35,307 nt of DNA from the NCBI GenBank assembly GCA_003022945.1, contig PXRZ01000067.1, positions 1 to 35,307 on the forward strand, in the 5' to 3' direction. The position numbers and the translations under genes are program-made. Below are positions 4,272 to 25,145 of this stretch, piece after piece; position 1 is the stretch's first letter, and each line of letters starts with the position of its first letter. The notes under the pieces were generated by a model that saw only the letters and a list, made by a program, of their open reading frames with translations, did no database searches and was not told the origin of the DNA. The DNA is from Halobacteriales archaeon QS_8_69_73 (GTDB lineage Archaea; Halobacteriota; Halobacteria; Halobacteriales; Haloarculaceae).

Positions 4272-5547
4272 ATGGCGGAGCCACTCCTCGATTATGAACT
4301 CGGTGACGGCGTGGTTACGACGGACGTTCACGTCGTCTCCAACAGACAGCCGTATCGGCACGAGTACGACGGGGGGGAAACCGCCAGGGGCGGGACGGCA
4401 GGCGGACGGGCGGACCCGGGCGTCACCGTCGATCGGCCGACCGGCGGGCTCACCGCCGGTCTCGACCCGGTCATGCGTCGGCTCGGCGGAACCTGGATCG
4501 CGTGGGGCGACGGCGAGGCCGACTTCGCGGTCAGCGACGACAGTAACCGCGTCGCGGTCCCGCCGGAGGACCCACAGTACACCCTCCAGCGCATCCCGCT
4601 GTCCGACGAGGAGGTCGCCGGCTACTACGAGGGGTACGCCAACCGGACGCTGTGGCCGCTGTGTCACGCCCAGATTGCTCGCGAACGACCTCCTCGGCTT
4701 TCACGTCCCGCTGTACTGCTCGAACTTCCTGGAGTGCGTCGACGACCTCCTCGAGGGCGCCACCGTCGATTGGGCCGAGGGCCGCGTCCACTACGGCGAC
4801 CGGCCCACGCGGATCGAGTCCCTGCCGCTGACGATCGATGCCGCCGAAATCCGGGAGCTGGCGGACACGGGGACCGACGACGCGGGCAGACGGTTCCGCG
4901 TCGAACACGGTATCGACCCCGACCGGCGGCTGATGCTGGGGGTCGACCGGCTCGACTACACCAAGGGCATCCCCGAACGGCTCGCCGCGCTGGAGCACCT
5001 CTGGGAGACCCGTCCGGAGCTCCGCGGTGCGTTCACCTACGTCCAGAAGGGCCGGGAGAGCCGCGAGGGCATCGAGGCCTACCGGGAACTGCAGACGACG
5101 GTCGACGACGCCGTCGCGCGCATCAACGACCGGTTCGGTACCGACGAGTGGCGACCGGTGGTCAACACCACCGCTCACCTCCCCGCGGAGCAGCTCTACG
5201 AACTCTACCGGGACGCTGACGTCGCGCTGCTGACGCCGCTGCGCGACGGCATGAACCTCGTCGCCAAGGAGTACGTCGCCGCCCAGGACGGCGACGACGC
5301 CGCGCTCGTGTTGAGCAAGTTCGCCGGCGCCTACCGCCAGCTCGACGACGCCATCGGCGTCAATCCGCGCGACACCCCGGGGACGGCAGCCGCCATCGAG
5401 CACGCCCTCAAGATGGACGACGCGGAGCGCCGGGTCCGCATGCGACGGCTCCGGAAGCAGGTCGCCGGCGAGACGGTCGAGGGATGGATCGAGTCGGTCA
5501 TCGACGCCGCGGCGACGGTCGCCGGTCGCCGGGGGCAGGTGCAGTGA
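4272..5547 (+). pseudogene. otsA: Trehalose-6-phosphate synthase, broken by an internal out-of-frame deletion
   Basis: OtsA joins UDP- or GDP-glucose to glucose-6-phosphate. The first 130 or so codons (4272 to about 4665) are a good N-terminus: VVSNRQPY, PTGGLTAGLDPVMRRLGG, YANRTLWPLCH. The frame then changes. From about 4670 the +1 frame continues with LLANDLLGFHVPLYCSNFLE, GVDRLDYTKGIPERL and [16 protein letters not shown] through to the stop at 5547. What normally lies between WPLCH and LLANDLLGFH is absent: some 80 residues including the His-Asp-Tyr-His segment and the FFLHIPFPS-like strand of the sugar-binding cleft. The span is 1276 nt, so the missing length is not a multiple of three. 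Both flanks are otherwise undamaged. The cause is either a recent deletion or an assembly omission. Confidence 0.9.
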
Positions 5548-6467
5548 GCCCGGACCCGACCGGGGGCCCCTCGTCCGGAGACCGGTCGTCGGCCGGGTCC
5601 TCGACCGGGGACCGACCGGCCACAGGGTCGTCGCCGAGAACCCGGCCGTCCGGCGAGACGCCGCCCCTACTCGGCAACTGGCTGTCGAGGCTCGAGGACG
5701 GCCTCTCGCGGTGCGAGCACCTGACGCTGTGTCTCGACTTCGACGGCACGCTCGCGCCCATCGCCGAGGACCCGGACGCGGCGGCCGTGCCGGCCGACGT
5801 CGAGCGGGCCCTCGCGGCGCTGGCCGACCGGCCGGGCGTCGAACCCGCCGTCGTCAGCGGACGGGCGCTATCGGACCTCCGCGAGCGCGTCGACCCGGAC
5901 GTGACGCTGGCCGGCAACCACGGCCTCGAGATGGACCGCGGGGAGCAGGAGTGGGTCCACCCCGCCGCCGCCGAACGGCGCGGGGCGCTCGAGCGCGCCA
6001 TCGGAGATATCACCGAGCGCCTCGCGGCGTATCCGGACTGTCGTATCGAGGACAAAGGCGTGACCGCGACGGTCCACCACCGCGGGGCCGACGCCGACCA
6101 CGCGACCGTGCGGGCTGCCGTCCGGACGGCCCTCTCCGACGAACCGGTCCTGGTCGCCACCGAGGGCCGGAAGATAGTGGAGGTGCGGCCCGACGTCGAG
6201 TGGCACAAGGGCGAGGCGGTGTGCGAACTCGTCGACGACGGCGAACGCACCTCCGCGGTGTACGTCGGGGACGACGTCACCGACGAGGACGCCTTCGAGG
6301 CGCTCGAGGATCTCTCCTGTCGGAGCGTGGGTGTCCTCGTCGGGAACCGTCCTTCCGCCGCCGACTACCGCGTCCACGACGTCGGCGGCGTGCGCGCGTT
6401 TCTCGCGTGGCTCGCCGACGAGGTGTACCCCGCAAGCGGGCCCCCGGACGGCGACGCCGGCCCGTGA
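5544..6467 (+). CDS. otsB: Trehalose-6-phosphate phosphatase
   Basis: OtsB dephosphorylates trehalose-6-phosphate to trehalose, a compatible solute, in the cytosol. The 307-residue product has HAD motif I (CLDFDGTLAPIAEDP), motif II region VVSGRALSDL, the family signature AGNHGLE, a cap domain, the motif III lysine in VEWHKGEAV, and motif IV VGDDVTDEDAF. The GTG start at 5544 overlaps the otsA stop (GTGA), so the two are translationally coupled. The first 50 residues are a Ser/Pro/Gly/Asp-rich leader that is probably disordered. The open frame reaches further upstream, but only inside otsA. With otsA broken as sequenced, the enzyme would lack its usual substrate source unless another synthase exists. 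Confidence 0.9.
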   Translation: MSPDPTGGPSSGDRSSAGSSTGDRPATGSSPRTRPSGETPPLLGNWLSRLEDGLSRCEHLTLCLDFDGTLAPIAEDPDAAAVPADVERALAALADRPGVEPAVVSGRALSDLRERVDPDVTLAGNHGLEMDRGEQEWVHPAAAERRGALERAIGDITERLAAYPDCRIEDKGVTATVHHRGADADHATVRAAVRTALSDEPVLVATEGRKIVEVRPDVEWHKGEAVCELVDDGERTSAVYVGDDVTDEDAFEALEDLSCRSVGVLVGNRPSAADYRVHDVGGVRAFLAWLADEVYPASGPPDGDAGP

Positions 6468-6695
6468 CGACACCCCCGTGACCCAGGTACGAAGAAGAAA
6501 CGCGGGCAGTCCCCGGAACGCCGAAGGGTCACCGGGTGCCGCGCGGTGGCTCGACCGCCGTCGTCCGTCTTCCTCAGCCCACACGAGGTCCGCTCGACCG
6601 GGCGACGGCCAGTTCTTATCAGCCAAAACACGTCGAATACAATCCCTGCTACTGCAAGCAGCGTCCGTATCGGGGTCGGGCTCGATGATCCGTCG

Positions 6696-6848
6696 ATGGC
6701 TCGATACCCACGTGCCGTTCGCGACGCGAAGATCAAGTGTCTGGAGTGCAACGCGCCGGTCGTCGAGACCATCGACGGGCGCTTCCTCTGTGTCGACTGC
6801 GGAGGGCGTATCCGCGACGGACCGGAAGACCCCTCGGACGACCGGTAG
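6696..6848 (+). CDS. Zinc-ribbon microprotein
   Basis: This is a 50-residue protein, MARYPRAVRDAKIKCLECNA through RIRDGPEDPSDDR. Two CxxC knuckles (CLEC and CVDC) are separated by 15 residues in a beta-ribbon-like spacing, as in the many haloarchaeal zinc-finger microproteins. The end is acidic. The frame is open for another 50 codons upstream, but that part is Ser/Arg/Pro-rich and not protein-like, so the start is the ATG at 6696. Its partner and role are unknown. It lies alone between otsB and the HTH_10 gene. Short length limits certainty, but the conserved cysteine pattern and acidity support a real gene. Confidence 0.65.
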   Translation: MARYPRAVRDAKIKCLECNAPVVETIDGRFLCVDCGGRIRDGPEDPSDDR

Positions 6849-7058
6849 CTCCGCCGGGGTCGCGGCGTTCACGAGAGCGACGCTCCCGTGCGGTCCACCG
6901 GAACTCTCCGACATCCGGGTGGCTGTGCCACCGCGCACGTCAGTTCCATTGCAGTCGCGTTCTCGGCGGTCGTCCGGTCGGCTGCCGTCCGTACGCGGTC
7001 CCCGACGGTCCGAGGTTTCATTATCTGTCAGTCGAAAGGAAGTTCGTGAGATCCAGTA

Positions 7059-7583
7059 ATGCCGACAATCGTCGTCGCCAACATTCCCGCAGAAGAGTTC
7101 GCGCTCCGCGAATCGCTCCGGGCCGTCCCCGATCTCGCGGTAGAGAGCCAGCGGGTGGTCGAGAAGGACAGGGACCTCGTGATGCCGCTCATGTGGGTTC
7201 GCGGCGCCAACGGCGAGACGGTTCAGACGGCGTTGGCCGACGATTCGAGCGTCCGCTCGGCTAGCCGCATCGCCAGTTACGAAGACGAGTCGCTGTACCA
7301 GATGGAGTGGAAACGGGACGTCGAACTCGCCGTCCAGATGATAACCGAAGACGAGGCCACCATCCTCGATCTCTACGGGACGAGCGACGGCTGGCAGCTG
7401 CGTTCGATGTTTCCCGACCGCGACACGCTCACGGGCTACTTCGGCGTGCCGCGGGAGGCCGACCTCGGCGACGTCGCCGACCGACTGGACATCAGCCACC
7501 AGGCGCTGTCCGAACGCCTCCGGCGCGGTCACACCAATCTCATCAAGGAGACCATCGGCGTCGGAGCCCCGGAAAAAACCTGA
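7059..7583 (+). CDS. HTH_10 (bacterio-opsin activator-type) regulator with an apparent internal in-frame deletion
   Basis: This 174-residue protein follows the layout of haloarchaeal Bat-like regulators: an N-terminal regulatory domain (MPTIVVANIPAEEFALRESL) and a C-terminal HTH_10 DNA-binding domain (FGVPREADLGDVADRLDISH, then ALSERLRRGHTNL). HTH_10 domains normally begin with a helix of the LTDRQREAL type just before the G-Y-F. Here the preceding domain's WQLRSMFPDRDTL is followed almost directly by TGYFGVPRE. About 40 residues, including that first helix, seem to be missing without loss of frame (junction near 7424-7438). The DNA-binding domain would be incomplete. An AT-rich ttcattatc at about 7016 may be the promoter. 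The gene converges on the cobalamin operon. Confidence 0.8.
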   Translation: MPTIVVANIPAEEFALRESLRAVPDLAVESQRVVEKDRDLVMPLMWVRGANGETVQTALADDSSVRSASRIASYEDESLYQMEWKRDVELAVQMITEDEATILDLYGTSDGWQLRSMFPDRDTLTGYFGVPREADLGDVADRLDISHQALSERLRRGHTNLIKETIGVGAPEKT

Positions 7584-7719
7584 CACCGTCGACCGCAACT
7601 GTCCGGAACGGCCCGCCGGGAAGTGCGGGGTTCTCGGGAGATATTCCGGCCGGGGATCACGTGAAGACGGGCACGAAAGCACGGCCGGTAGTACCAGAGA
7701 TTGCGAAGCGAGTCTCGGA

Positions 7720-8493
7720 TCACGGCTCGAAGACGGTCGCCGTCTCCTCGGTCGAGACACCGTGTTCGGCCGACGACGGACTCGGCACCGTTTCGCCGGC
7801 GTACCGCGACGCGAGGCTCGCCCGGAGGGCCTCCCGGACGCAGACTCTCGCGGCAGCCCCGACCGTCGTCGCGCTGCCGGCGAAGCGCGTCGCCTCGCCC
7901 GCCGGGTCACAGCCGACGACGACGGCGTCGCTCGACGTTCCGGTGACGCCGACGGTCGCCGAGAGCGTCGCCGTCTTCGCCTCCACCGCAGTCGCGAGCA
8001 GGCCCACCTGCGCGCCGGCGACCAGGTTCCGCGTCGTGCCCACGAATACGTTGACGGTCCCCGGTCGCCACGCGTCCCTGGGGTCGCTTCCGGGATCGCC
8101 GTCGGCGTCCGGGGGGTTCGGGTCGGGGGGTTCGGATCCCTTTCCGGGCATCGGGAGCGTCGCGGGGTTCGAGAGCCCGGCCGTCACGACGGCTGCCACC
8201 GACCGGCAGTGGGCGCCGCGGGCGTGTCGCTGCGACACGCCGGTGAGGAGGATCGGGGCCGAAACGGGGCCACCGAGGCGCTCGGCCGCGTACGCCGCGA
8301 GATCGGTCCGCTGGAAGCCCTCCGGAACCGTCAGGTTGTATGCGGCGTCGGCCGTCACGGTACCGCCGGGCCGGTCCGCCCCCTTGCTGTCCCCGCCGTC
8401 CCCCCCGACCGGAACCGCCGCGTTCGAGAGCCACCGCGTCCCCGGCCGCCGCAGGGTCAGCCGGTCGTCGGTCCGGTCGTACCCGAAGGTCAT
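7720..8493 (-). CDS. cbiZ: Adenosylcobinamide amidohydrolase
   Basis: CbiZ cleaves the aminopropanol arm from adenosylcobinamide to give adenosylcobyric acid, letting archaea salvage cobinamides. The 257-residue product shows the family's conserved stretches: RPGTRWLS, ADAAYNLTVPEG, LLTGVSQRHARGA, GTVNVFVGTTRNL, VVGCDPAGEATRFAGSATTV. It starts at the ATG at 8493, which overlaps the cobD stop at 8490 (ATGA). It is the last gene of the six-gene operon. Length and motifs look complete. The Gly/Pro/Asp-rich insertion around residues 115-140 is a variable loop in these proteins. Confidence 0.88.
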   Translation of the reverse strand: MTFGYDRTDDRLTLRRPGTRWLSNAAVPVGGDGGDSKGADRPGGTVTADAAYNLTVPEGFQRTDLAAYAAERLGGPVSAPILLTGVSQRHARGAHCRSVAAVVTAGLSNPATLPMPGKGSEPPDPNPPDADGDPGSDPRDAWRPGTVNVFVGTTRNLVAGAQVGLLATAVEAKTATLSATVGVTGTSSDAVVVGCDPAGEATRFAGSATTVGAAARVCVREALRASLASRYAGETVPSPSSAEHGVSTEETATVFEP

Positions 8494-9420
8494 GCGTCCA
8501 GTGCGTCGAACAGCGCCTCGGTCGACTCGCGGTTCCGGACGGCAACCCGGACGTGGCTGCCCGGCCCCCGGAAGGTCGTCGCGTCCCGCAGGACGACGCC
8601 CCGCTCGCGGCATCTCGCCAGCAGGTCCGCGGGGTCCGACCCGACATCACACAGTAGGAACGGCGCCTCCGACGGCGCAACGTCGAACCCGCGGGCCGCC
8701 AGCCCCGACCGGAGGTACTCGCGCTCGCGGGCGACCCGACGGCGCGTCTCGGCGACGAACCCCGTGTCGCGCATGGCGTGGGCGCCGACGGCGGCGGCAG
8801 GGGCGCCGAGCGACCACGTCGGTCGGGCGGTCCGGAGCCGGTCGAGAGCGTCGCCGGCCGCGACCGCGAAGCCCGCCCGCAGGCCCGGCAGCCCGAACAA
8901 CTTCGTCAGCGAGCGGGCGACCACGGTCCCGGGGCGGCCCGCCAGTGAGTCGCGGTCGGTGAAGCCGAGAAACGCCTCGTCGACCACGAGGAGCGTGTCG
9001 GCGCCGGCACACCGGTCGGCGAAGACCCGCAGGTCGCCCGCATCGGGACAGTCGCCGGTCGGGTTGTTCGGCGTACAGACGACGGCCGCGGCGTACGGCG
9101 CCGGGTCCGCCGCGAGCAGTTCGTCGTGCGGGACGAACACGGGGTCGCCGCCGGCCAGCTCGACCTCGCGGGCGTACTCGCCGAACGGCCGTCGGGACGA
9201 CGCGGCCGGCGTCGCAGCCGACGTAGTCGGCGGCCGCCGCCCGGAAGTCGGGGTAGTCGTCGTTCGGGTACGAGCGAGCCGCCGCCAGCGCGTCCTCGTA
9301 GACCGCGCGGGTCCCGTCCGGCGTCCGCGGGTTGACGTTCGCACTCAGGTCGACGACATCGGGGTCGTCGCTGGAGCCGTGCGGCACCCGCTCGGCGTCG
9401 GCGACGCTGTCAGGGTCCAT
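8490..9420 (-). pseudogene. cobD: Threonine-phosphate decarboxylase-like aminotransferase (CobD), broken by an internal deletion
   Basis: CobD is a PLP enzyme making aminopropanol phosphate for the cobalamin nucleotide loop. The gene starts at the ATG at 9420 (MDPDSVADAERVPHG, VDLSANVNPRTPDG), overlapping the end of cobY. The frame runs to VVPTA near 9190. It then continues in another frame as FGEYAREVELAGGDPVFVPH, NNPTGDCPDAGDL, VVDEAFLGFTDRDSL and SLTKLFGLPGLRAGFAV (containing the PLP Lys), to the stop at 8490. Between VVPTA and FGEYARE the usual GG-LAAIRL type segment and following strand, about 25 residues forming part of the PLP-phosphate pocket, are missing. The total of 931 nt is not a multiple of three. 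Flanks are intact. Confidence 0.85.
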
Positions 9421-9967
9421 CGGCGAGCACCTCCGCGACGTCGGCGTCCGCGGGTCGATTGACGTTGACCGCCAGCCGGGCGTCGTGGCTGACCCGGACC
9501 CGCTCGTCGTCGCCGACGACGTTCAAACCGGTCGGTGACAGCCGGCGGCCGTCCCGTTTCCGGGTGGAATCGGCGCTGACGCCCAGCGCCTCCTTCAGCG
9601 CCGTCGGCACGCAGACCGTCAGCGAGCCGCCGACGTGGGCCGCGAGCGTCCGGTCGACGACTTCAGCCGACAGCAGCGGCAGGTCGGCGACGACCGTGAG
9701 GACCGGCTCGTCGACGGCACCGAGGGCCTCGGCCAGGTCCGTGACGTAACCCTCGCCGGCCGCCTCGATGCGGTCGACGCGGCCCCCGAGGTGGGCCGCC
9801 GTCTCGGGGACGTGCGGCGACGTGACGGCGTGGACCCGGTCGGCTCGGCTCCTCTCTAGCGCCGCGAGCACGCGATCGACCATCGGGTCGCCGCTCACTT
9901 CGAACAGCGGCTTCTCGCCGCGGTCCAGCCGGGTCCCCCGACCGCCGCACATCAGAAGCGCGTCCAC
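9410..9967 (-). CDS. cobY: GTP:adenosylcobinamide-phosphate guanylyltransferase (CobY)
   Basis: CobY is the archaeal non-orthologous replacement of CobU. It transfers GMP from GTP to adenosylcobinamide phosphate. The 185-residue NTP-transferase fold starts MDALLMCGGRGTRLDRGEKP (nucleotide loop), with the metal-site strand LTVVADLPLL, then TVCVPTALKEALGVS and the C-terminal LAVNVNRPADADVAEVL. The start at 9967 lies inside the end of cobS (16-nt overlap) and its end overlaps cobD by 11 nt. Position between cobS and cobD supports the identification. Length is normal and no damage is seen. Confidence 0.88.
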   Translation of the reverse strand: MDALLMCGGRGTRLDRGEKPLFEVSGDPMVDRVLAALERSRADRVHAVTSPHVPETAAHLGGRVDRIEAAGEGYVTDLAEALGAVDEPVLTVVADLPLLSAEVVDRTLAAHVGGSLTVCVPTALKEALGVSADSTRKRDGRRLSPTGLNVVGDDERVRVSHDARLAVNVNRPADADVAEVLADGP

Positions 9968-10623
9968 GCGACCACCCCCGCATGCAGCGCGACGACGCGG
10001 CCGAGCTCGTTGACCGCGCCGAAGACGTCGCCGTTGACGCGCGAGAGCCCGGTCAACAGCGCGGCAGGGACGGCGACGAGCGCCGGGCCGACCAACAGCG
10101 CGGGACCGGCGGCGCTCGTGAACCCCGAGCCCAGCCCTTCGTGACTCGCCGACCCGAGACAGGCGACCGTCGCCATGCCGAGTTTCGCGCCGACCTCGCT
10201 CGCGACGACGACGGCCGCGGCGGCCGGCGCCGGCAGGTCCGCGAGCGCCAGCCCCGCCAGCGCCAGCCCCGCGACGACGATCGCGACGGCGACGACCGCG
10301 CCGACGCCGGTCGTAGTGTCCGTCAGGACCTCGCGCCGGCTGTCGGCGTCGTGGACGACGGCCGCGTCGCCGAGGTCGGCGACACCGTCGAGGTGGGCGA
10401 TGCCGACCAGTCCGACCAGCGCGAGAATGTAGCCGAAGGCGCCGGCCTCGGCCGGCAGGACGACGAGCGGGACCGCGGCGGCCGCGCCGACGAGGTAGCC
10501 GACGAGCGGGAAGACCGCCGGCGCCGTCTGGAAGCGCCGCCAGTCGGCCTCGTCGACCCCGACGGGCAGCCGCGTGAGGAACGCGACGCCGCCACGCAGC
10601 GCCGCCGTGAACGCTACAACCAC
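9952..10623 (-). CDS. cobS: Adenosylcobinamide-GDP ribazoletransferase (cobalamin synthase), apparently shortened
   Basis: CobS is an integral membrane enzyme that joins adenosylcobinamide-GDP to alpha-ribazole(-phosphate). The 223-residue product begins at a GTG at 10623 (VVAFTAALRGGVAFLTRLPV) and has the signature GIAHLDGVADLGDAA, VLTDTTTGVGAVVAVA and GAKLGMATVACLGSASHEGL. Near the end ALLTGLSRVNGDVFGAVNEL is continuous. In the family, a transmembrane helix and an Arg-rich loop of roughly 25-30 residues normally sit between the LLT-type turn and the GDVFGA motif. That helix is absent here, without loss of frame (junction near 10039-10056). The shortened protein might fold with altered topology. 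It overlaps cbiB by 10 nt and cobY by 16 nt. Confidence 0.85.
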   Translation of the reverse strand: MVVAFTAALRGGVAFLTRLPVGVDEADWRRFQTAPAVFPLVGYLVGAAAAVPLVVLPAEAGAFGYILALVGLVGIAHLDGVADLGDAAVVHDADSRREVLTDTTTGVGAVVAVAIVVAGLALAGLALADLPAPAAAAVVVASEVGAKLGMATVACLGSASHEGLGSGFTSAAGPALLVGPALVAVPAALLTGLSRVNGDVFGAVNELGRVVALHAGVVAWTRF

Positions 10624-11546
10624 CGTACCACCCCGACGGCCGCCGCGAGTATATACGTCACGACGCCGGCCCGCCGGACGGCCGCGAGCGCGGCCTCGCC
10701 GTCAGCGACCGTCGGCAGTCCGGCGACGTCGTTGAGGACGTAGGCGCCGGGCTTCTCGAGTCGGACGGTGAGCGCGGCCGCGAGCGTCCCCATCGGCCAG
10801 CCGGCGTTTGGCGACGCCGGCTTTCGGGCGTACCGGCGGGCCCGCCACGGCGCCTCCGGGTCGCCGGCGGCGATCCCGAGCAGGAGCGCCGATAGACGGG
10901 CGGGGACGACCATCACGAGGTCGTCGAGACGGGCGCTACCCCATCCGAAGGCGCCCGGGTAGCCGACCATCGAGTCCATCGTGTTGACCGCCTTGACGAG
11001 CGTCGCCGCGGCGGCGGCGGCCGGCAGCGAGACGACCGAAAGGGCGACGAAGGCGACGAGCGGCGCGACCAGCCCGTCCGAGAGGTTCTCCGCGAGGCTC
11101 TCGACGGCGGCGCTGCGGACCAGCGGCGGCGACATACTCTCGGGGTCGCGGCCGACCAGCGCCGGCAGCGCCTCGCGGGCGGCCGCGGGGTCCGTGTCGC
11201 TCCGCTCGAGCACCCGCCGACCGGACGCCAGCAGGAACCGCAGGCTCGATGTCGACCACAGCGTCAGCCCCGCGAGGCCGGCGAGGACGGCCGCCGCGAC
11301 GGCCGGTCGGCCCTCGAGGGCGACCGCGACCGCCGACAGCAGGCCGTAGACGGCTCCGGCGGCCGCCGCCGGCAAAGCGACCGCGAGAACGGCGCCGGCG
11401 AGCCGCGGCGCCGGCCACGACCGGTCGGCGACGCCGACGACGCGGCCGAACAGCGCGACGGGGTGGTAGTCGGCCGGCGGCTCCCCGAGCGTCCAGTCGA
11501 GGCCGGCGGCGAGGCCGACGGCCGCCGCCGCGGCCAGCGGGGTCAC
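10614..11546 (-). CDS. cbiB: Adenosylcobinamide-phosphate synthase
   Basis: CbiB (also named CobD in bacteria) is a membrane protein that attaches aminopropanol or its phosphate to adenosylcobyric acid. The 310-residue product starts at GTG 11546 (VTPLAAAAAVGLAAGLDWTL). It carries family motifs DWTLGEPPADYHPVALFGR, SLAENLSDGLVAPL, VKAVNTMDSMVGY, FGWGSARLDDL and KPASPNAGWPMGTLA, with several Ala/Val/Leu-rich membrane helices. The start codon shares bases with the stop of the upstream HAD gene (GTGA overlap), and its 3' end overlaps cobS. Length is typical and no lesion is seen. Confidence 0.9.
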   Translation of the reverse strand: MTPLAAAAAVGLAAGLDWTLGEPPADYHPVALFGRVVGVADRSWPAPRLAGAVLAVALPAAAAGAVYGLLSAVAVALEGRPAVAAAVLAGLAGLTLWSTSSLRFLLASGRRVLERSDTDPAAAREALPALVGRDPESMSPPLVRSAAVESLAENLSDGLVAPLVAFVALSVVSLPAAAAAATLVKAVNTMDSMVGYPGAFGWGSARLDDLVMVVPARLSALLLGIAAGDPEAPWRARRYARKPASPNAGWPMGTLAAALTVRLEKPGAYVLNDVAGLPTVADGEAALAAVRRAGVVTYILAAAVGVVRWL

Positions 11547-12163
11547 GACGGCCGCTCCAGCGCCGCCTCGAGCGCCGACAGCGGCGTCTCGCCGACGTCG
11601 ACGAACCGACCGCCGGCCTCGGCGACGCCGCCGTCGGTCGCCGGGTCGTCGCCGACATGGACGAGCCGCTCGACCGGGACATCGAGCCGGCGGGCGACCG
11701 TCTCGAAGGCCCGGATGTCCGGCTTGCGCCAGCCGCAGGCGACGCTGGTGACGACGCAATCGAAGGCGTCCCGGAGGTCGGCCCGGATCAGCGCCCGGCG
11801 GGCCAGTTCGGGGACGCTGCAGTTCGAGCAGACACCGACCGGGCCGCGGTCGCGGGCCGTCGCGACGGCCTCGGCAGCCCCCGGGCGCCGCCGGATTTCG
11901 GGGTCGAAGGCGGCGACGACGGCCCGCCTGGCGGCGTTGCCCGGTGCCTCGACGCCCCGGGAGGCCAGCGCCGCCGAGACGTGCGCCGGCAGCGGCACCT
12001 CGGCGCCGGCCGGCGCGTCGACGTGTCGCTCCCGGTAGGCGTCGCCGAACTCCGGCGGGACGTCGACGCCGCGGTCCCGCAGTTCGGTCGCGATCGCCGC
12101 CGCCGGGTCGGCCGGCCGGTCGGCCTCGACGAGCGTGCCGAAGAGGTCGAAGGAGACTGCCAC
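11543..12163 (-). CDS. HAD-superfamily phosphatase, first gene of the cobalamin operon
   Basis: This 206-residue HAD hydrolase starts at GTG 12163 (VAVSFDLFGTLVEADRPADP). Motif I is SFDLFGTLV (nucleophile Asp plus a Leu at the usual acid/base position), motif II is VCSNCS, motif III lysine is in CGWRKPDIRAFE, and motif IV is HVGDDPATDGGVAEAGG. A small helical cap lies between motifs I and II. Coupled by a 4-nt overlap to cbiB, it is probably a phosphatase of this pathway. Alpha-ribazole-phosphate or a cobalamin-phosphate product is the obvious candidate, since no CobC/CobZ-like gene is seen in the operon. This is inference from context. The motif order is that of general HAD phosphatases, so the substrate is unproven. 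Confidence 0.8.
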   Translation of the reverse strand: MAVSFDLFGTLVEADRPADPAAAIATELRDRGVDVPPEFGDAYRERHVDAPAGAEVPLPAHVSAALASRGVEAPGNAARRAVVAAFDPEIRRRPGAAEAVATARDRGPVGVCSNCSVPELARRALIRADLRDAFDCVVTSVACGWRKPDIRAFETVARRLDVPVERLVHVGDDPATDGGVAEAGGRFVDVGETPLSALEAALERPS

Positions 12164-12304
12164 CGTCCGTTCTACCGGAGGGGCCGACTTGAATCTCCGG
12201 GGGCGGGTTCGAGAGAGATCAGGCTCCGGCGAATGACGAGGAGTCGGTGGACGACGGATGATGTACTGTCGTCGAAACCAAGTTACAACCGTCCAGAGCC
12301 CGAA

Positions 12305-13846: not shown

Positions 13847-13892
13847 CGCACCCACGGACCCACGTCGGGCGAACCGACCGACTCGAATCTGG

Positions 13893-14023
13893 ATGCGGAA
13901 AGCGCTCTGGCATCTGCTGGCCGGTACGCGAGGCGGGAAGAGCCGGGCGCGACTCGTCCGGGTTATCGATGACCGACCGTGGAACGCCGGCCGGCTCGGC
14001 GAGGCGCTCGACCTGAGGTACTC
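13893..14023 (+). pseudogene. Truncated winged-helix (ArsR-type) regulator stub
   Basis: The first 40-odd codons from the ATG at 13893 read MRKALWHLLAGTRGGKSRAR, then LVRVIDDRPWNAGRLGEALD and LRYST. This is the start of a common haloarchaeal winged-helix protein in which the helix-turn-helix (NAxxLAExLDLxYxT) is followed by VRHHLDVL and a beta-wing. The expected recognition helix and wing do not follow in any frame before the convergent IMPase gene ends at 14118. The frame instead runs into Cys/Pro/Arg-rich, non-protein-like sequence. It is therefore a 5' remnant, or its 3' part is missing from the assembly as in other genes here. The family call rests on the N-terminal pattern only. Confidence 0.55.
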
Positions 14024-14117
14024 TACGTCAGCACCGGCATGCTCTACTCCGCAGACGGCACCGCGCGGCGGGCGCTACCGCTGCTGCGGGCGCCGGAACC
14101 GGCGGCGCTGAGCTTTC

Positions 14118-16157: not shown

Positions 16158-16199
16158 GCCGGCCCTGTGGGCGCCGGCGACAAAAACGGTCGGGCGGGG

Positions 16200-17045: not shown

Positions 17046-17125
17046 ACTTCGTGTTGCGCTGGCGGCGACAAAGCAGTTGTGTCCAGGTGGGTGGCGCGCG
17101 ACGGCCCGCCGGGACCGCAGGCGGC

Positions 17126-17857
17126 CTACGGTAGCAACTCGCGGTCCAGCCGCTCGACGACCCCCTCGGCGACCGTCCGCAGGTTGACCGTGTCCTCGCG
17201 ATTGTAGGAGACCAGCGTCTCGAGGGCGCCGTCGACGCCGCGTTCGTGTTCCCGCCACAGCCGGATGGCGTCCCTTCCGGCGAGGTCCGGTCGGTCCCGC
17301 TCGACGCCGACCGCCGGCTCGATCGCTTTCAGCCCGCCGGTCAGCCCCGCCCGACGACAGGGGTACATCAGATCCAGATGCGGCGCGTCGATCGAGAGGT
17401 CGAACGACGTCTCCAGGAACGGGACGTCGAAGCGGGCGCCGTTGTACGTGACGAGCAGCGGCGCGTCGAGCAGCTCCCGGAGGTTCTCGCGGGTCAGGTC
17501 GTCGCCGCGGACGAGCGTCTCGGTGTCGTCGCCGCGGTGGACGCTGACGCAGGTGACCCGGTCGCGGGTCTGGCTCAGGCCCGTGGTCTCGATGTCGAAG
17601 AAGCAGGCCGCCTCCCGGAAGTTCTCGTAGAGGCGCCACCGCTCGGCGGACGGGAGCTGCTCGTCGAAGAACGTCGCGTCGCCAGCGTCGAGCCGCGGGC
17701 GGGCCGATTCGATGAACGACTCGATGCGGTCGGCGGTCGTCGGCCCGCACAGCGAGGGGTCGAACTCCGCCCACCTGCGGGCGCCGGCCTCCCAGAGCCG
17801 CCGCTCGGTGGTCTCGCCGACCCCGTCGACGCCGATGTAGGTGTTCTCCAGTCGCAC
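17126..17857 (-). CDS. RNase H-like DEDD exonuclease (YprB family)
   Basis: This 243-residue protein has a short N-terminal helix-hairpin-helix-like segment (YIGVDGVGETTERRLWEAGA) and a DnaQ-like ribonuclease H fold. The metal-binding acids are visible: FFDIETTGLS (Asp88, Glu90), LVTYNGARFDVPFLE (Asp near 145) and SYNREDTVNL (Asp near 223). Proteins of this RNase_H_2 family are widespread in haloarchaea and presumed to be 3'-5' exonucleases. Substrate and partner are unknown. It starts at a GTG at 17857, with ATTTAG about 25 nt upstream as possible box A, and follows the DJ-1 gene after 24 nt. Confidence 0.82.
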   Translation of the reverse strand: MRLENTYIGVDGVGETTERRLWEAGARRWAEFDPSLCGPTTADRIESFIESARPRLDAGDATFFDEQLPSAERWRLYENFREAACFFDIETTGLSQTRDRVTCVSVHRGDDTETLVRGDDLTRENLRELLDAPLLVTYNGARFDVPFLETSFDLSIDAPHLDLMYPCRRAGLTGGLKAIEPAVGVERDRPDLAGRDAIRLWREHERGVDGALETLVSYNREDTVNLRTVAEGVVERLDRELLP

Positions 17858-17881
17858 GACTAATTATGGGGGCGGCGGCCC

Positions 17882-18466
17882 CTAAATCGCTCGTTCGTAC
17901 TCGAGTTCGCCGGCGACGGCCGCGGCGGTCTCCGCGCCGCAGGCCCGCTCGAGGAGGTGCAGCGCGAGGTCGAGCCCCGCGGTGACGCCGCCGGCGGTGA
18001 GGACGTCGCCGTCGTCGACGACGCGGGCCTCCCGGACCGACGCCTCCGTCTCCCGGAGGTCCGACATCGCGGTCCGGTGGGTCGTCGCCGGCCGGCCGTC
18101 GAGCAGGCCCGCTTCGGCGAGCAGCATCGCGCCCGTACAGACCGACGCGACGGTCGCGCCGGCCTCGTGGGCGCGGGCGGCGGCGTCGGGCACCACGCCG
18201 CGTTCGCATTCGGTCCAGGCGCCGGGCGCGGCGCGGTCGTTCCAGCCGCCGCCCGGGACGACGACCACCCCGGGGTCCCGGTCGGCGAGCCGGGCGTCCG
18301 GAACGATGCGGGCGCCGTGGCTGGCCTCGACCTGGCGTTCGTCGTCGACGGTGACCAACGAGGCATCGATGTCGGCGTCGAGCGCCGCCGCGGTCCGGAC
18401 GACCTCGTACGGGCCGATAGCGTCCAGCTCGTCGAACCCCTCGTACAGGAGGATAGCGACGTCCAT
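17882..18466 (-). CDS. DJ-1/PfpI family protein (glutamine-amidotransferase-like)
   Basis: The 194-residue protein starts MDVAILLYEGFDELDAIGPY, with the conserved Glu of the DJ-1 active site in that first helix. The nucleophile-elbow Cys lies in ASVCTGAMLLAEAGLLDGR, followed by ATTHRTAMSDL. Members include glyoxalase/deglycase-type enzymes, AraC-linked sensors and isonitrile hydratase-like proteins. No AraC domain is fused here, and the activity is not predictable. It is the first gene of the minus-strand run 18.5-14.1 kb. Its upstream region contains a copy of the 22-bp motif whose TTTAT part could serve as box A. Confidence 0.85.
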   Translation of the reverse strand: MDVAILLYEGFDELDAIGPYEVVRTAAALDADIDASLVTVDDERQVEASHGARIVPDARLADRDPGVVVVPGGGWNDRAAPGAWTECERGVVPDAAARAHEAGATVASVCTGAMLLAEAGLLDGRPATTHRTAMSDLRETEASVREARVVDDGDVLTAGGVTAGLDLALHLLERACGAETAAAVAGELEYERAI

Positions 18467-18507
18467 GCGGGCGGTCGGGCCGCCGTCGGCATGAGCCTGC
18501 GGGTCAT

Positions 18508-18529
18508 CGATAAACCGTATGTCGCGATA
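18508..18529 (+). repeat. Copy 1 of a 22-bp intergenic motif
   Basis: The core TAAACCGTATGTCGCGATA lies between the DJ-1 gene and a decayed regulator. It recurs with few changes at 25160-25181 (opposite strand, 19 of 22 matching) and at 26176-26197 (same strand, 17 of 22). Copies 1 and 2 contain two direct CGATA boxes 17 bp apart. Seen on the DJ-1 coding strand, it includes TTTAT about 45 nt before the ATG and could act as a promoter or operator. Confidence 0.5.
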
Positions 18530-18671
18530 GCAAACCGGCGGGGCGGCATCAACACAGTTTCGGAGGATGGATTTGATGCGTGGCTTCGTTTCATGTTGTC
18601 TGTGCTGTAACTGGTTTTCCTGGAGTGAAGTCCGGTTCTACCGAAGATCAGACCGTCGTTATTTCGTCCAC

Positions 18672-19051
18672 TTATATCGTCGTGCCCCGAAGGAGGACCT
18701 CGTCACTTGTGTCTCGATACTCGTGGAACGTCTTGAGCGCCCATTCGACGGCGTCATCCAACCCGTTTGTAATAGTGCCGAAGAGCCGCATCGACTCGTC
18801 GTAGACGCCCAGACAATGGTTTCTTCGTCGGCGATCGCCAATCCAAACGATAGCTCCTGGTCAGTTTGCCAGAGCATACAGGTTTCACCTCCTAAGCAGG
18901 CGTGGAGTTCCTCAGAGTACGTCGACCAGAGTTCGTCTATTACGTCACCGCTCACAATGATATCAACTTTCGCGACGAAAGCGTTGAGGCCACGACGGAC
19001 TTTTGCAATGGCGACTCCGGAGGCCGACGTACCTGCTTCATGGGGACGCAT
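18672..19051 (-). pseudogene. Decayed transcription regulator, C-terminal FilR1-like domain with frameshift
   Basis: Reading leftward, the frame gives VDIIVSGDVIDELWSTYSEE, then CMLWQTDQELSFGLAIADEE. This is the ligand-type C-terminal domain of haloarchaeal FilR1-like HTH regulators. Near 18812 the frame breaks. One extra G would restore it, and the neighbouring frame continues VYDESMRLFGTITNGLDDAV, then EWALKTFHEYRDTSDEVLL to the TAA at 18672. The N-terminal helix-turn-helix is missing upstream. It is thus a 5'-truncated and frameshifted regulator remnant in lower-GC DNA. A sequencing error could explain the single-base shift, but not the missing N-terminus. Confidence 0.7.
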
Positions 19052-19244
19052 ACGTCTCCCACGTTTCGACGTACCGATATTATGACCGCGGTGCTGTTGA
19101 TGGATGTGATGACGATGCTGATAAAGAGATCAAAGTCGGAAACGCCGCTGGAACGGCCGGTTACTACATCTGAAATGATGAGCCTATCACGTTCGGCTGA
19201 TGATATCTCGGCGGGAAGAATTCGTGACGAAAGACGTGGATGGA

Positions 19245-19844
19245 CTATCGGTCGGGCGCTGGATTACGTCCCTCCGGTCTGCGAGAGAGGAGAAGTGCCC
19301 CAACAAGTCCGGGGCCCCCCACAGCGACAAGCATCTCCAAGAGCACTGCACCCACGAGTGTCAGGCTGACCCCACAGAATCCGGCCAGACAGGCCCGGGG
19401 CCCTTCTAGCGAGAGGAGGTCTCCACCGAAGAGACCACCGGGAGCGACGAAGATGGCAAACACGAACAGCATGGCGACCGGCCAGCCATATGTTGTGAAC
19501 CGGAACGCTGTCGCCGAATCGGTGTCCCGGAGGCGCGTGACGAGTCGCTTGCCGATCCAGAGCGGGAGTGCAACGAACACAAGGAGGGTCGCAACACCAG
19601 TCGCAAGGAGGGTCGCTGGGATCTCCCACAGTTCCGGATCAATGCCACCGCTGGCAATAGACCAGATGACGCCGATGCCGAGGATGTACAAGAGGCCAGC
19701 CTCGTAGAGCGCTCCCGTAAGAGCTGTGCGGAAGTCGTCCGTGCCGGTTCGATGGAATCGGTGTGCAGCTAACGTCACCGGGACCGAAATACCGACCGTA
19801 ATCACGAACACGAGCGTCGGGATCAGTCCAGTCGGAAGCACCAT
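19245..19844 (-). CDS. Multi-pass membrane protein, function unknown
   Basis: This 199-residue protein has about five transmembrane segments: residues 7-27, 43-62, 75-98, 117-138 and 145-185 (possibly two helices). It begins MVLPTGLIPTLVFVITVG and ends with a basic/polar tail. A loop RFHRTGTDDFRTALTGALYE precedes the second helix. No motif was recognised. It lies just downstream of a decayed HTH-plus-membrane regulator on the same strand, and such regulators are often paired with a membrane protein they may control (inference). GC is lower than in the surrounding operons. The open frame appears intact, unlike its neighbours. Confidence 0.6.
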   Translation of the reverse strand: MVLPTGLIPTLVFVITVGISVPVTLAAHRFHRTGTDDFRTALTGALYEAGLLYILGIGVIWSIASGGIDPELWEIPATLLATGVATLLVFVALPLWIGKRLVTRLRDTDSATAFRFTTYGWPVAMLFVFAIFVAPGGLFGGDLLSLEGPRACLAGFCGVSLTLVGAVLLEMLVAVGGPGLVGALLLSRRPEGRNPAPDR

Positions 19845-19952
19845 CTCAGGCAGCCACCTCCGTTGTGCGTATCATGAATGCACGTTGATGACCACGAAAC
19901 GTAAATCGCTCTGTCGTTCAAATTCGATTTTGAGCGATGGAGATCATGCCAG

Positions 19953-20429
19953 TCACCGGTGTTCCACCCACCACCACAAACCGGTCAGCAATGGCACGAA
20001 CATCCCGCCGAGCATGAATTCGACGCCCAGAATCGAGAGCGCTGTTCAAACAAGCGATCCGTCCACTCCGCCAGCACCCAGCCCGAACCCCTGATAGACG
20101 TACAGGAGCACGCTCCCGATGAACAGGGGGCTGGTCGCGCTGATGAGTCGCTTCACCACGTCAAAGAATCCGCGCTTGCGCTCGTCGGTTCCGACAAACA
20201 CGATCGTCGGTTCGGACGCGGGGGCCGTACACGTTCATTTCAGCTCCCTTCTCCGAGTACCGTGTGTCTGCGACTCTGAGGAGGCCCGCGTCGGCAAGGT
20301 TGTCGAGGTGTAGGAGACGTTCTGGATGGACATATCGAGGCGGTCGGCCACTTCAGACGGGGGAGCTGGTTCATCGTAGATTGCGGTGAGGATTCGTCGG
20401 GCGGTTTCCGAAGAGAGGGCTTCAAACAC
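19953..20429 (-). pseudogene. Decayed winged-helix regulator with C-terminal membrane helices
   Basis: From GTG 20429 the protein begins VFEALSSETARRILTAIYDE with the helix-turn-helix PPSEVADRLDMSIQNVSY, an ArsR-like fold. Three lesions follow. A G seems lost near 20308, after which the restored frame reads HLDNLADAGLLRVADTRYSE. One G too many sits in the run at 20220-20224. An in-frame TGA at 20046-20048 interrupts the membrane part. Around that stop the frame gives FFDVVKRLISATSPLFIGSV, then LYVYQGFGLGAGGVDGSLV and ALSILGVEFMLGGMFVPLLT, ending at 19953. The normal product would be a DNA-binding domain followed by two transmembrane helices. Two lesions are in G runs and could be read errors; the TGA is less easily explained that way. 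Confidence 0.72.
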
Positions 20430-20635
20430 GTCCGCTGTTGCGTTTAACTCTTCCCGTCAGCTGAGAGCGGTGTCGATCGCCACGCTGCCTACTGAACGGC
20501 GCAGTCCGAGCGGCGTGCGTGGCACACGGCGCACCGGAAGTCTCGGTCGGTCCGACCGCGACGGTCCGGCACCGTCGAGAGCGGACGGTCGGACTCGCCC
20601 CCGCCGCGAGCCTCCGCACGGCGCGGCGTACTCCG

Positions 20636-22999
20636 TCACCAGTCCCATGAGTTGGGGTCGTCGCCCAACGCGGCTTCGGTCACGGCACCGCCGCGGGGGG
20701 CGTCGTCACGACGCCCCTGCTGGAGCGCTATCGTTACCGTCGTCCCGTTCTCGGCGACGACATTGACCTCGCCGCCCATCTCGGTCACCAGCCAGTTCAC
20801 CATCCACAGCCCGAAACTGCTCCCGTGGTCAACGGGAGACTCACTGGCTTGTCTGAGTACGCGTGCCTCCATGGCCGGCAGTCCCGGCCCGTCGTCGCGC
20901 ACCTCCACGGTGACGCGGCCGTCGTCGTCCGGCGGCACCACCGCCACCGTCACCTGCGATCCACCGGCGGCGATGGCGTTTTCGACCAGCTCCACGAGCA
21001 CCATCTCCAACCGGTCGGTCGCTATCGCCCGCTGGACACCCGGCAGTTCACACCGGATCGTCGTCTCAGGATGCGTCTCCCGTAGCTCCGTGACGGCCCG
21101 TTCGACGACCTCGACGACATCGAGCGGCCGTGGCGCGGGGTCGTCCCGGAGCGCCGTCTCGACCGTTTTAGCCTTCTCGCTCACACGTATCAGGTCGCGG
21201 GCGGTTCCGACCATCATCTCGGCACGAGCCGCTACGTCGTCGTCGGCGGTCGCCGCGATGGTTTCGCCCAGTCCCGCGACGACGTTCATGTCGTTGCGGA
21301 GGTTGTGGCGCAACACCCGATTGAGGACGCCGACCAGCCGCTCGCGGCGCTTCCGGCTGGTCACGTCGCGCTGAATGCCGATGAAGTGGCTCGTCTCGCC
21401 GGCCGAGTTCGCGACCGGCGTCACCGTCAGTTCGTTCCAGAACGGCGTTCCGTCGGCCCGGTAGTTCAACAGTTCCGTCGTGCGGGTCTCCTCGTGCTCG
21501 ATCGCGTCTCGGATGACGTCGACCGCAGTCTCGTCGGTGTCGGGTCCTTGGAGGAACCGGCAGTTCGCCCCGACCGCGTAATCCCGGTCGTATCCCGTCA
21601 GGTCAGTGAACGCGTCGTTGACGTACACGAGCGGAGCGTCAGGTTCGGTCGCGTCGGCGATCGAGATGCCGACGCCCGCTTCGTCCATCGCTCGCGTCCG
21701 CAACCGCAGCTGCCGTTCGCGTTCTTTGCGCTCGGTGACGTCTTGGAAGGTTCCCCGCAGCCGCACCGTGTCGCCGTCCTCGCGGGTAGGCCGGCCTTGG
21801 ACACGCACCCAGCGGAGGTCGTCGTCGGCCGTAACGACCCGGAGTTCGAGGTCGTACGGCTCACCGTCCTCGATGGCGCGGTCGTTGGCCACCCGTATGT
21901 CCGACCGATCCTCCGGATGGTAGAACGAGAGGGCGTCCTCGACGGTGGGCGTGAAGGTCTCGTCCACGCCGTGGATGCGGCAGACTTCGTCGGTCCAGTA
22001 GAGGACTCCGGTCCGGCAGTCGTACTCCCAGCCGCCGACGCTGGCGAGCTGTTGGCTGTACGCGAACAGCTCCCGCTCGCGGGCCAGTTCCCGTTCCCGC
22101 CGGACCCGCTCGGAGATGTCCCGGACGATGCCCTGGATGTAGCGGCCGTCACTGAGTTCGACGGTGCTGGCGCTCATCTCGATCGGGACCCGGTCGCCGT
22201 CGGCCGTCCGGAACTCGAGCTGGCCGCCGTCGGGCAGTGTGCTCGTCGTGTCGCCGGCGGCTGCCAGGCCCTCGAGCAGTCGCTGGCACTGGTCGCGGCC
22301 CTGCGTCGGATGGAGGTCGAACACGGTCATCCCTTCGAGGTCGGCGCTATCGTAACCCGTGAGTGAGATGGCCGCTTCGTTGACGTCGGTGATCTCGGCG
22401 GTGTCGGCTTCCACGAGGAAGATGGCGTCGGGCGCGGCCTCGACGAGGGTACCCCGGCGCTTGTGCGCGTCCGTGAGCTCCGCCTCGTAGCGGGTGGCGG
22501 CCAGCTCCCGGCCGAGTAGCCGCGCGAGGAGTTCGACGAACGCCTTCTCGCCGGCCTCGAAGCTGTCCTCTCGGGCGGTCTCGTCGACGAAACACACCGT
22601 CCCGTAGGATTCCCCGCGAACGAAGATCGGAGCCCCGAGATAGCAGGCGAGCCCATGTTCCTCGTACGCGGGGTCGTCAGCCCATCCTTCCTCGGGGGCG
22701 TCGGCGAGGGCGACCGGCGAGTCGGCGTCCATCGTGCGGCGGCAGTACGTCGTCGCCCGGTTCAGGGTCTCCCCCGGCGGAAACAGGGTTGCGGGGCCAC
22801 CGGCGCTGGCGACGATCTCGTGGATGCCAGCTGCCTCGTCGGCGCGTTCGATGTGGCCGTTCTCGACCCCGAGATACTCGCGGCCGAGCGCGAGCGCTTC
22901 GGTCTGTTTATCCTCCAGCGACAGCCCATCGGCGGACATGACCTCGTAGAGGCGCTGTCTGATAGTGTCGCTCGGATCACCTGGTGTACTAGCTGACAT
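20636..22999 (-). CDS. GAF-PAS-PAS-LOV sensor histidine kinase
   Basis: This 787-residue soluble kinase has, in order: GAF (about 20-170), PAS (180-297), PAS_3-type (315-425) and a LOV-type PAS (437-547). A HisKA-like domain follows with RVLRHNLRND (phospho-acceptor His565), then HATPase_c with N-box LVENAIAAG (Asn674), G1 RDDGPGLP and G2 GSSFGLWMVNWLV. The LOV domain contains GANCRFLQG with Cys480 at the flavin-adduct position, plus Asn512, Asn522 and Gln543 in the usual flavin-contacting places. It is predicted to sense blue light through FMN. No transmembrane segment and no receiver domain are present, so its response-regulator partner is elsewhere. The ATG at 22999 is preceded by TTATTCG about 36-42 nt upstream. 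Confidence 0.92.
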   Translation of the reverse strand: MSASTPGDPSDTIRQRLYEVMSADGLSLEDKQTEALALGREYLGVENGHIERADEAAGIHEIVASAGGPATLFPPGETLNRATTYCRRTMDADSPVALADAPEEGWADDPAYEEHGLACYLGAPIFVRGESYGTVCFVDETAREDSFEAGEKAFVELLARLLGRELAATRYEAELTDAHKRRGTLVEAAPDAIFLVEADTAEITDVNEAAISLTGYDSADLEGMTVFDLHPTQGRDQCQRLLEGLAAAGDTTSTLPDGGQLEFRTADGDRVPIEMSASTVELSDGRYIQGIVRDISERVRRERELARERELFAYSQQLASVGGWEYDCRTGVLYWTDEVCRIHGVDETFTPTVEDALSFYHPEDRSDIRVANDRAIEDGEPYDLELRVVTADDDLRWVRVQGRPTREDGDTVRLRGTFQDVTERKERERQLRLRTRAMDEAGVGISIADATEPDAPLVYVNDAFTDLTGYDRDYAVGANCRFLQGPDTDETAVDVIRDAIEHEETRTTELLNYRADGTPFWNELTVTPVANSAGETSHFIGIQRDVTSRKRRERLVGVLNRVLRHNLRNDMNVVAGLGETIAATADDDVAARAEMMVGTARDLIRVSEKAKTVETALRDDPAPRPLDVVEVVERAVTELRETHPETTIRCELPGVQRAIATDRLEMVLVELVENAIAAGGSQVTVAVVPPDDDGRVTVEVRDDGPGLPAMEARVLRQASESPVDHGSSFGLWMVNWLVTEMGGEVNVVAENGTTVTIALQQGRRDDAPRGGAVTEAALGDDPNSWDW

Positions 23000-23275
23000 G
23001 GTGCGAAGAGAACCAGTCCTTGGTTCGTTTTCGACGAATAAGGATTGTGTCCGACCGGTTTAGGTTTGGTGTTGGTATCACGCTATCGGACCGCCTCTCG
23101 TCTGACGCTGGCTGCCGATGCGTTTCTCGGACTCCTCTCGGGTGGCGTCCCCCTCGGGGTCGGCAGTAGCAAAGGATCACGGCGATCGCTACGGGACGGT
23201 CAGTTTCCGACGACCACGTTCCCGCGACGACCCGGACCCCGTTCCGACGAGCCGGAGAACCCGCGAGTCTCGGAA

Positions 23276-24317
23276 TCAGGTTACGTCGGCGTCGACGTCG
23301 ACGGATTCGTAGGCCCCCTCGTCGAGTACCGCCCGAAATCGCTCGACGGCGCGGTGGACGTCCTCGAAGCTCGTGTACAGCGGCGACGGACAGACGCGGA
23401 CGACGTTCGGCGGGCGGTAGTCGACCACGACATCACGCCGTTTCAGCGCCGCGGCGACCCCCTCGGCGGCGGGGTGCTCGACGGCGACGTGGCCGCCGCG
23501 ACGCGCCGACTCGCGGGGCGTGCCGACCGAACACTCCGGCAACCGCTCGTCGGCGAGCTCGATCAGGTACTCCGTCAGCGCGACTGACTTCTCGCGGACG
23601 GCGCCGATACCGGCCGCCTCGAGAACGTCGAGGGCGCCCTCCAGCGGCGCCAGCGACAGCAGCGGCGGCGTCCCGATCTGGTAGGTCGACGACGCCGACG
23701 GAGTGCGCGAGGTCGAACCCCGCCAGCGCGCCGTGGTCGTGGGCCGCGGCGGTCAGCCGCTCGACGTCGAACAGCTGGCCGGACCGGTACAGCACCGACG
23801 GCATGAACAGCAGCTCGACGTCGTCGTCCAGTGCGTCGATCACGTCGGCCTCCTCGACGGTTCGGCCATCCCTCGATTCGACGACGACGAGGTGCTCCTC
23901 GGGGTCGAGCCCCCGGCGGCGGAGCTGCGCCCGCAGCGCGTAGTGGTCAGACGGGAAGTCGAGTTCGTTGACGACGATTGTCCCCGAATCGAGGAAGGTG
24001 TCGACCAGCGCGTGGACGTTGACCGTCGTGGCGTTGGCGACGACGACCTCCTCGGGGGCGGCGCCGACGAGGCCGGCCACGCGGTCGCCCAGCCGCTCGG
24101 CGTAGCCGAACCACGGCGGGTCGCCGTCGGTCCACCCCTCGATCGCGAGACGGCGCCACTCCTCGCGGACCCGCTCGAGCGTCCGGGCGGCGTCCCGCGA
24201 GACCGGGCCCAGCGAGTTGCCGTCCATATAGAGCCCCGGCGGGTCGAACCGGTCGGCGAACGCCGACAGCGGGTCGGCCTCGTCGCAGGCCCGGGCGTGC
24301 TCGCGGCTCGTGTCCAT
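23276..24317 (-). pseudogene. kynU: Kynureninase, broken by an internal deletion removing the PLP lysine
   Basis: Kynureninase is a PLP enzyme converting kynurenine to anthranilate and alanine. From the ATG at 24317 the N-terminal half is well preserved: PPGLYMDGNSLGPVSRDA, NATTVNVHALVDTFLDSG, VELLFMPSVLYRSGQLFDVE, LAGFDLAHSVG. The frame then shifts near 23683-23697. The other frame continues with STYQIGTPPLLSLAPLEGAL, AGIGAVREKSVALTEYLIEL and VVDYRPPNVVRVCPSPLYTS to the stop at 23276. Roughly 65-70 residues are missing, including the SYKYLN-type segment with the PLP-binding lysine. The span of 1042 nt is not a multiple of three. As sequenced it cannot be active. Confidence 0.9.
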
Positions 24318-24375
24318 ACCGGGCGGTCGGCCGGCGGCCACAAGTGGCTTCCTCTCGGGCCGCAAGCGGCCGTCC

Positions 24376-25145
24376 ATGGATCCCGAGTTGGAGGCCGCCC
24401 TGTCGGCGCTGCCCGATATCCCGCCGTGGCACGCGCTGTCCGTCGAAAGCGCCAGACGGCTCGAAGACGAGCTGTTCTCGACCGACGTCGACCACGACTG
24501 CACGGTCCGGGAGTTCGCCGTCGACGGCCCCGGCGGCGACCTCCCGCTGCGGAGCTACCGGCCGGCCGACGACCCGCTGCCGACCGTCGTCTTCCTCCAC
24601 GGCGGCGGCTGGACGCTCGGAACGCTGGACTCCGCGGAGAGCATCTGCGTCGAGTTAGCCGAACGGGTCGGCTGTCTCGTCCTGTCGGTCGACTACCGGC
24701 TCGCGCCGGAGCACCCGTTCCCTGCGGCCGTCGGTGACGCCCAGGCTGCCGTCGAGTGGGCCGCCGAGCATGCCGGGTCGCTGGGCGGCGACGGTACCGT
24801 CGCGGTCGCCGGGACCAGCGCCGGCGGCGGGCTGGCGGCCGCGACGGCGCTCCGTGCCCGTGGGGCGGGGCCGGACCTCGCCGCACAGCTGCTGCTGTAT
24901 CCGATGCTCGACCCCGGGCTCGACACCGACTCCTGCCGGGAACACGCCGACGCGCCGCTGCTCACCCGGGCGGACCTGGCGTGGTTCTGGGCGCAGTACA
25001 CCGACTCGCCGACGCCGGCGTCGCCGTCGACCACCACCATGCGCCATCGCTGTGTCACGGCTTTTGCTCGCTAACGGACCGCGTGTCCGCCGCCGACGAG
25101 GCCGTCGACGAGATCGCCGCCTCGCTCGGCGACCGGCTCGCGTAG
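24376..25145 (+). pseudogene. Alpha/beta hydrolase (hormone-sensitive-lipase-like esterase), broken by an internal deletion
   Basis: From the ATG at 24376 the protein shows the HSL-family oxyanion motif VVFLHGGGWTLGT, VDYRLAPEHPFPAAV and the nucleophile elbow VAGTSAGGGLAAA, and runs to FWAQYT near 25000. The frame then changes and continues LADAGVAVDHHHAPSLCHGF, which contains the catalytic His, to the stop at 25145. About 40-45 residues between these points are absent, including the GHDPLRDEG-type segment with the catalytic Asp. The total of 770 nt is not a multiple of three. It is divergent from kynU with a 58-nt spacer, and both genes are damaged in the same way. The substrate would be a small carboxyl ester; family knowledge only. 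Confidence 0.88.

Follow-up and report, generated by a model that had tools for sequence, protein, structure and literature searches.

The DNA considered here, the window, is the 35,307 nucleotides (nt) at positions 1 to 35,307 of contig PXRZ01000067.1 (forward strand) from Halobacteriales archaeon QS_8_69_73 (GCA_003022945.1), which is contig C67 of a draft genome, G000, of 2,633,186 bases in 79 contigs that is 76.3% complete. Six of its genes, namely otsA, an HTH_10 regulator gene, cobD, cobS, kynU and an alpha/beta hydrolase gene, together with a stub of a winged-helix (wHTH) gene, each lack an internal stretch that is present in at least one relative. From an analysis that consisted throughout of comparing assembled sequences, we regard these internal gaps as almost certainly artefacts of assembly rather than properties of the organism; that they are artefacts is close to shown, and we infer that they arose in scaffolding. 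The phenomenon is an ordinary one and a matter of curation, an error in a database genome that needs no new biology and no biological mechanism.

Segments missing from genes of the window

The natural comparison for the window is its closest relative among 60 genomes searched (its own included), contig C2 of a second draft, G011, which is about 94% identical to it. G011 is itself a draft, of about 30 contigs and 88% completeness, and over the 10,588 nt that were compared its contig C2 does not differ from PXRL01000002.1, which comes from the metagenome-assembled genome (MAG) Halobacteriales archaeon QS_4_69_225. The two contigs were compared by blastn and global alignment, and the segments missing from the window were then sought in third genomes using a database of 31 loci.

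The largest body of comparative evidence concerns three genes. In otsA (trehalose-6-phosphate synthase, Glyco_transf_20; 4272..5547, plus strand), about 248-257 nt are missing at a blunt junction between 4667 and 4676 and the halves on either side are in different frames; a loss of 248 nt would break the frame. As G011 starts downstream of this junction, the gene was compared in 9 of the 12 available otsA loci, and every one of the nine, each in a different genome, is longer by 248-257 nt (305 in one) between window positions 4667 and ~4676. The break is also visible in the Pfam profile PF00982, to which the 5' part matches over positions 4-103 (29.9 bits, under the cut-off of 32.5) and the 3' part over positions 194-471 (261.5 bits). 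In cobD (threonine-phosphate decarboxylase; 8490..9420, minus strand), 77 nt are lost at 9185|9186 relative to G011, breaking the frame, and the segment is spanned in 17 of the 17 loci that gave a match (16 genomes); the gene takes its name from the best NCBIfam match of the G011 form, TIGR01140, which at 255.8 bits falls under the cut-off of 290.55. In cobS (adenosylcobinamide-GDP ribazoletransferase; 9966..10623, minus strand), whose G011 form passes TIGR00317, the loss of 78 nt at 10040|10041 keeps the frame, and all 18 loci giving a match (17 genomes) span it. That the window is the side that lost sequence can thus be taken as well shown for these three genes, and the idea that their shortened forms are ancestral is refuted by the relatives that carry the segments.

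For two further genes, one additional draft, G014, supports the view that it is the window which would have lost sequence. The regulator gene (HTH_10, BAT-type; 7059..7583, plus strand) lacks 135 nt of the G011 form at 7430|7431 with the frame kept, such that the G011 product matches BAT over positions 20-145 and HTH_10 over 1-52, as against 20-121 and 16-52 for the window form; G014 spans the segment. The hydrolase gene (Abhydrolase_3; 24376..25145, plus strand) lacks 133 nt at 24999|25000, which breaks the frame; the long form in G011 matches its family, and G014 spans the lost segment at a looser criterion. The gene for kynureninase, kynU (23280..24316, minus strand), lacks 203 nt at 23683|23684, again with the frame broken, and the G011 protein passes the kynureninase family TIGR01814, covering positions 2-400 of the 400 in the profile; the lost segment found no match in any third genome among the loci searched.

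An earlier, sequence-only reading had proposed that these six genes were each missing one internal segment, and the comparison bears it out, against G011 for five of them and against nine genomes for otsA. Its estimate of about 25-80 missing codons compares with a measured ~26-86, four of the six cuts break the frame and two keep it, as had been read, and the junctions had been placed correctly and without a scar: they are blunt, with 0-4 nt of exact microhomology at the 12 junctions inspected (one of them an intergenic difference, at 12235). The wHTH stub (13893..14023, plus strand), put forward as a possible seventh case, stands up in part. At 14021|14022, 332 nt of G011 are absent from the window and the frame is broken, but G011 is the one genome that supports the loss, no third genome among the loci searched doing so, and the frame in G011 itself runs into a stop there.

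Losses across two sister drafts

The comparison was extended to two more long contig pairs (G000:C8 with G011:C10 and G000:C3 with G011:C27), giving 177.7 kb of alignment between the two drafts over three G000 contigs. Differences were counted as losses when they measured at least 25 nt and had a flank identity of at least 0.85, smaller or more poorly flanked indels being dropped; this filter also leaves aside the smaller, mostly intergenic indels that separate the window from G011. It reduced the 13, 16 and 23 events seen in the three pairs to 31 losses in G000 and 12 in G011, with otsA standing outside the 31, since G011 does not reach its site. As a control, one pair of near-complete genomes from a single genus (G010 and G015, two contigs each, 92.2% identity) was passed through the same filter. 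Over the 93.3 kb that could be aligned, out of 200 kb taken from each genome, it gave no loss at all, and a single one when the flank filter was loosened, this being the one event present before final filtering. With no comparable event in the control pair, the losses in the window are not due to chance.

The G000 losses have a median of 85 nt and mostly fall within about 30-330 nt. Six of the 43 filtered events lie in no qualifying open frame (370, 547 and 697 nt in G000; 399, 474 and 506 nt in G011), and these, which were left in the counts, may be real indels. Both drafts lose short pieces, and they do so at different sites. Within G000, the losses are shown to occur throughout the genome, without regard to gene function, GC content (GC) or repeats.

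This indifference to gene function extends to essential genes; the sequence-only reading had noted no such loss in the long essential genes nearby (mutS, L15e and rio2), but a sparing of essential genes is rejected. In G000, a loss of 31 nt in ileS and one of 83 nt in gatB both destroy the reading frame, and smc has two losses, of 177 and 47 nt; all three genes were named by NCBIfam on their G011 forms. In G011, mutS is hit. A search for second copies covered ileS and gatB in G000, an incomplete draft from which such a copy may be missing. For ileS, the whole draft holds one close match, which is split into two frames at the loss; for gatB it likewise holds one, comprising residues 1-452 of 497 only, and the remaining matches to either gene lie at 28-44% identity. 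From what is established about these genes, a living cell with only broken forms of ileS, smc and gatB is not plausible, and the cells almost certainly carry intact copies.

Origin of the losses

As the specific cause of the losses, we consider the joining of contigs into scaffolds to be the probable one, with the gap between neighbouring contigs underestimated and their ends abutted. Briefly, contigs would have ended at spots that were unresolved or uncovered, and paired reads from a library of wide insert sizes would have joined neighbouring contigs. Since a gap is bridged only by long inserts, a naive estimate of its size would come out too small. Moderate gaps would then be represented by short runs of N (N-runs), whereas an estimate of zero or less would lead to the contig ends being abutted with no Ns between them, and the bases of the gap would disappear without a scar.

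The N-runs that do exist in G000 (13 in the 834.7 kb examined) offer a view of this bias. For eight of the 13, where matches end flush at the Ns, G011 reveals the true gap, and all eight N-runs are shorter than the gap they stand for (shortfall 78-262 nt, on average 145 nt; N-run against gap in G011, 37/115, 73/252, 78/159, 96/194, 96/262, 157/307, 176/438 and 204/347). They are not one-for-one masked stretches, because a mask would preserve length and the N-runs do not. N-runs that are systematically too short are expected if scaffold gaps were underestimated and small gaps abutted. The blunt losses are, moreover, shorter than the true gaps at the N-runs (Mann-Whitney p 0.0016). In a simple model with 100-nt reads, a mean insert of 700-800 and a standard deviation (SD) of 150-200, gaps of between 50 and 450 nt are underestimated by 41-223 nt; the same model with an SD of 100 gives just 18-99 nt, which is not the right size. 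Fitting the shortfall of the N-runs to sigma^2/(M-g) returns a sigma of 220 and an M of 624 on eight points, although the trend was first seen on six N-runs and the two that came later, 73/252 and 96/262, lie well off it. From the N-run data we therefore claim no more than which way the gap bias runs and roughly how large it is. Wide insert distributions are reportedly known from Sahlin et al. 2012 to bias naive gap estimates in paired-end scaffolding; the direction is the same here, with eight of eight N-runs short, but in our case the underestimate is read from a relative and not from reads.

Some context comes from the sequencing itself. Excerpts from PMC5532433, on Atacama salt crusts from sites coded Sw, Qh and Qs, describe 100-base paired reads from a HiSeq2000, with libraries of 600-1000 bp, and assembly by IDBA_UD, and by its name QS_4_69_225, that is G011, would belong to this data set. 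IDBA-UD is suspected of such errors in the portion of Chen et al. 2020 (PMC7111523) consulted, which likewise deals with local assembly and scaffolding-gap errors in MAGs. The cases given in that portion are of sequence without read support and of Ns inserted despite an overlap; here the case would be the opposite, with bases dropped at a join free of Ns.

Several points weigh against this account. The call of an artefact comes from assembled sequences, and IDBA_UD is recorded for the apparent data set of G011, not for G000, the window's own genome. At 203, about 250, 332 and as many as 697 nt, the larger losses lie beyond the usual reach of the estimated bias, and losses above about 200 nt fit the scaffold-gap mechanism less well; some of them may be real indels or the product of another failure of assembly. 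The frame is kept in only 4 of the 31 G000 losses, as against the one third expected (p 0.013), the figure for G011 being 6 of 12. Microhomology of at least 4 nt is found at 3 of the 31 junctions (9.7%) as against 3.1% at random places, few cases but above expectation. Lastly, G011 is an imperfect yardstick, being lossy itself, and a few of the 31 losses may be insertions in G011.

The microhomology bears on a different route to the same assembly loss, in which repeats were collapsed or bubbles removed in the assembly graph and no scaffold ends were abutted. We think this rather unlikely. It would account for the four of the 31 junctions with 3-5 nt of microhomology and for the excess at 4 nt and above, and it would sit well with the statement, in the part of PMC7111523 drawn on here, that co-existing strains confuse de Bruijn assemblers. 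Against it, 15 of the 31 junctions have no microhomology at all and the longest stretch is 5 nt; over all 31, the mean is 1.06 nt as against 0.81 nt at random places. The k-mer sizes usual in assemblers are far above 5 nt. As a general cause, microhomology-mediated deletion is rejected on the junction data.

A second route to assembly loss, the dropout of segments with high GC or strong folding, is improbable. The sequence-only reading had offered, as one of two causes, a systematic loss of high-GC segments in assembly or gap closing, and of this the assembly loss has gained support and the role of GC has not. Individual segments are indeed very GC-rich (0.87 in cobS and 0.82 in the hydrolase gene), but the 31 G000 losses average 0.703 and random segments 0.701 (p 0.45), which rules out high GC as a general cause. 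Strong folding is ruled out in the same way, since the 27 losses shorter than 300 nt have a folding energy of -0.392 per nt, no different from the -0.381 of random segments.

That the deletions are real, in a lineage whose genes are decaying rapidly through blunt end joining, is very unlikely, and with it the unusual spread of short deletions that had been the other suggestion of the sequence-only reading. Blunt junctions and the frequency of losses in two sister drafts are what such decay would produce. It would, however, have struck essential genes, breaking the sole close matches to ileS and gatB, the losses in G000 and G011 lie at different sites, and the control pair shows no such events under the same filter. 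Haloarchaea are polyploid, and a population that truly carried frequent blunt deletions of 30-330 nt, with intact and deleted copies of many genes mixed and the deleted form assembled, is a more far-fetched version still. Programmed excision of internal segments, which has nothing for it but the clean ends, can be set aside as next to impossible, given that inspection by eye of 12 junctions revealed no shared motif, that microhomology is near random, that the sites differ between the sister drafts and that frames break.

Under the reading we prefer, that of assembly artefacts, the G000 draft is unfit for inferring gene loss, pseudogenes or missing functions. The 31 losses in 177.7 kb correspond to about 0.17 per kb and, when extrapolated, to about 460 damaged sites in the 2.63 Mb of the draft, and broken marker genes may have lowered its completeness score of 76.3%. 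Looking for blunt indels between sister drafts, and comparing the length of N-runs with the true gap, provides a check by which similar drafts could be flagged.

Segments missing from the relative and other differences

The reciprocal losses, in which the window holds sequence that G011 lacks, are of similar form. In this section, the names otsB, histidine kinase, rio2 and L15e were assigned by reading and not by family search. Segments of 83 nt in otsB (5962..6044) and 92 nt in cobD (8560..8651) are present in the window, absent in G011 and spanned in other genomes. In a gene of the cobalamin cluster, 90 nt (8041..8130) are also present in the window and absent in G011; the length of this region differs among relatives, with several shorter by about 30-36 nt, so that the difference may be partly natural. 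A 75-nt segment of a PAS-type histidine kinase gene (20962..21036) is absent in G011 and found no third-genome match among the loci searched. In mutS (named by NCBIfam), the 90 nt at 34576..34665 are absent in G011 and spanned in two other loci, L162 and L196. The same gene carries two further differences, both dropped by the filter: at 33081|33082 the window is shorter than G011 by 54 nt without a change of frame, the microhomology amounting to 11 nt and one flank having an identity of 0.80, and elsewhere there is a 21-nt in-frame difference. Unlike the blunt losses, these two look like natural indels.

A number of larger differences between the two contigs were also observed. Of the open frame at 30256-31773 in the window, some 1.17 kb (30344-31510) has no counterpart in G011. 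This is too long for the gap model and may reflect a true deletion or an assembly failure on a larger scale. The stretch at 18547-20446 in the window, about 1.9 kb in length and with a lower GC (0.579 at 19001-20000), has about 250 nt between the same flanks in G011 and was probably replaced or acquired. In the other direction, G011:C2 carries about 1.4 kb at 21366-22776 (locus L039, 1366-2776), between the genes for a regulator and L15e, with no such insert at 26759-26762 of the window; it holds an open frame of 423 codons that by eye, from its CxxC motifs, resembles TnpB of the IS200/IS605 type. A further 0.8 kb or so at 18990-19799 of the same contig (locus L038), between the hydrolase gene and rio2, is absent in the window and holds a 122-codon frame resembling, again by eye, PIN-like proteins of the DUF5615 type.

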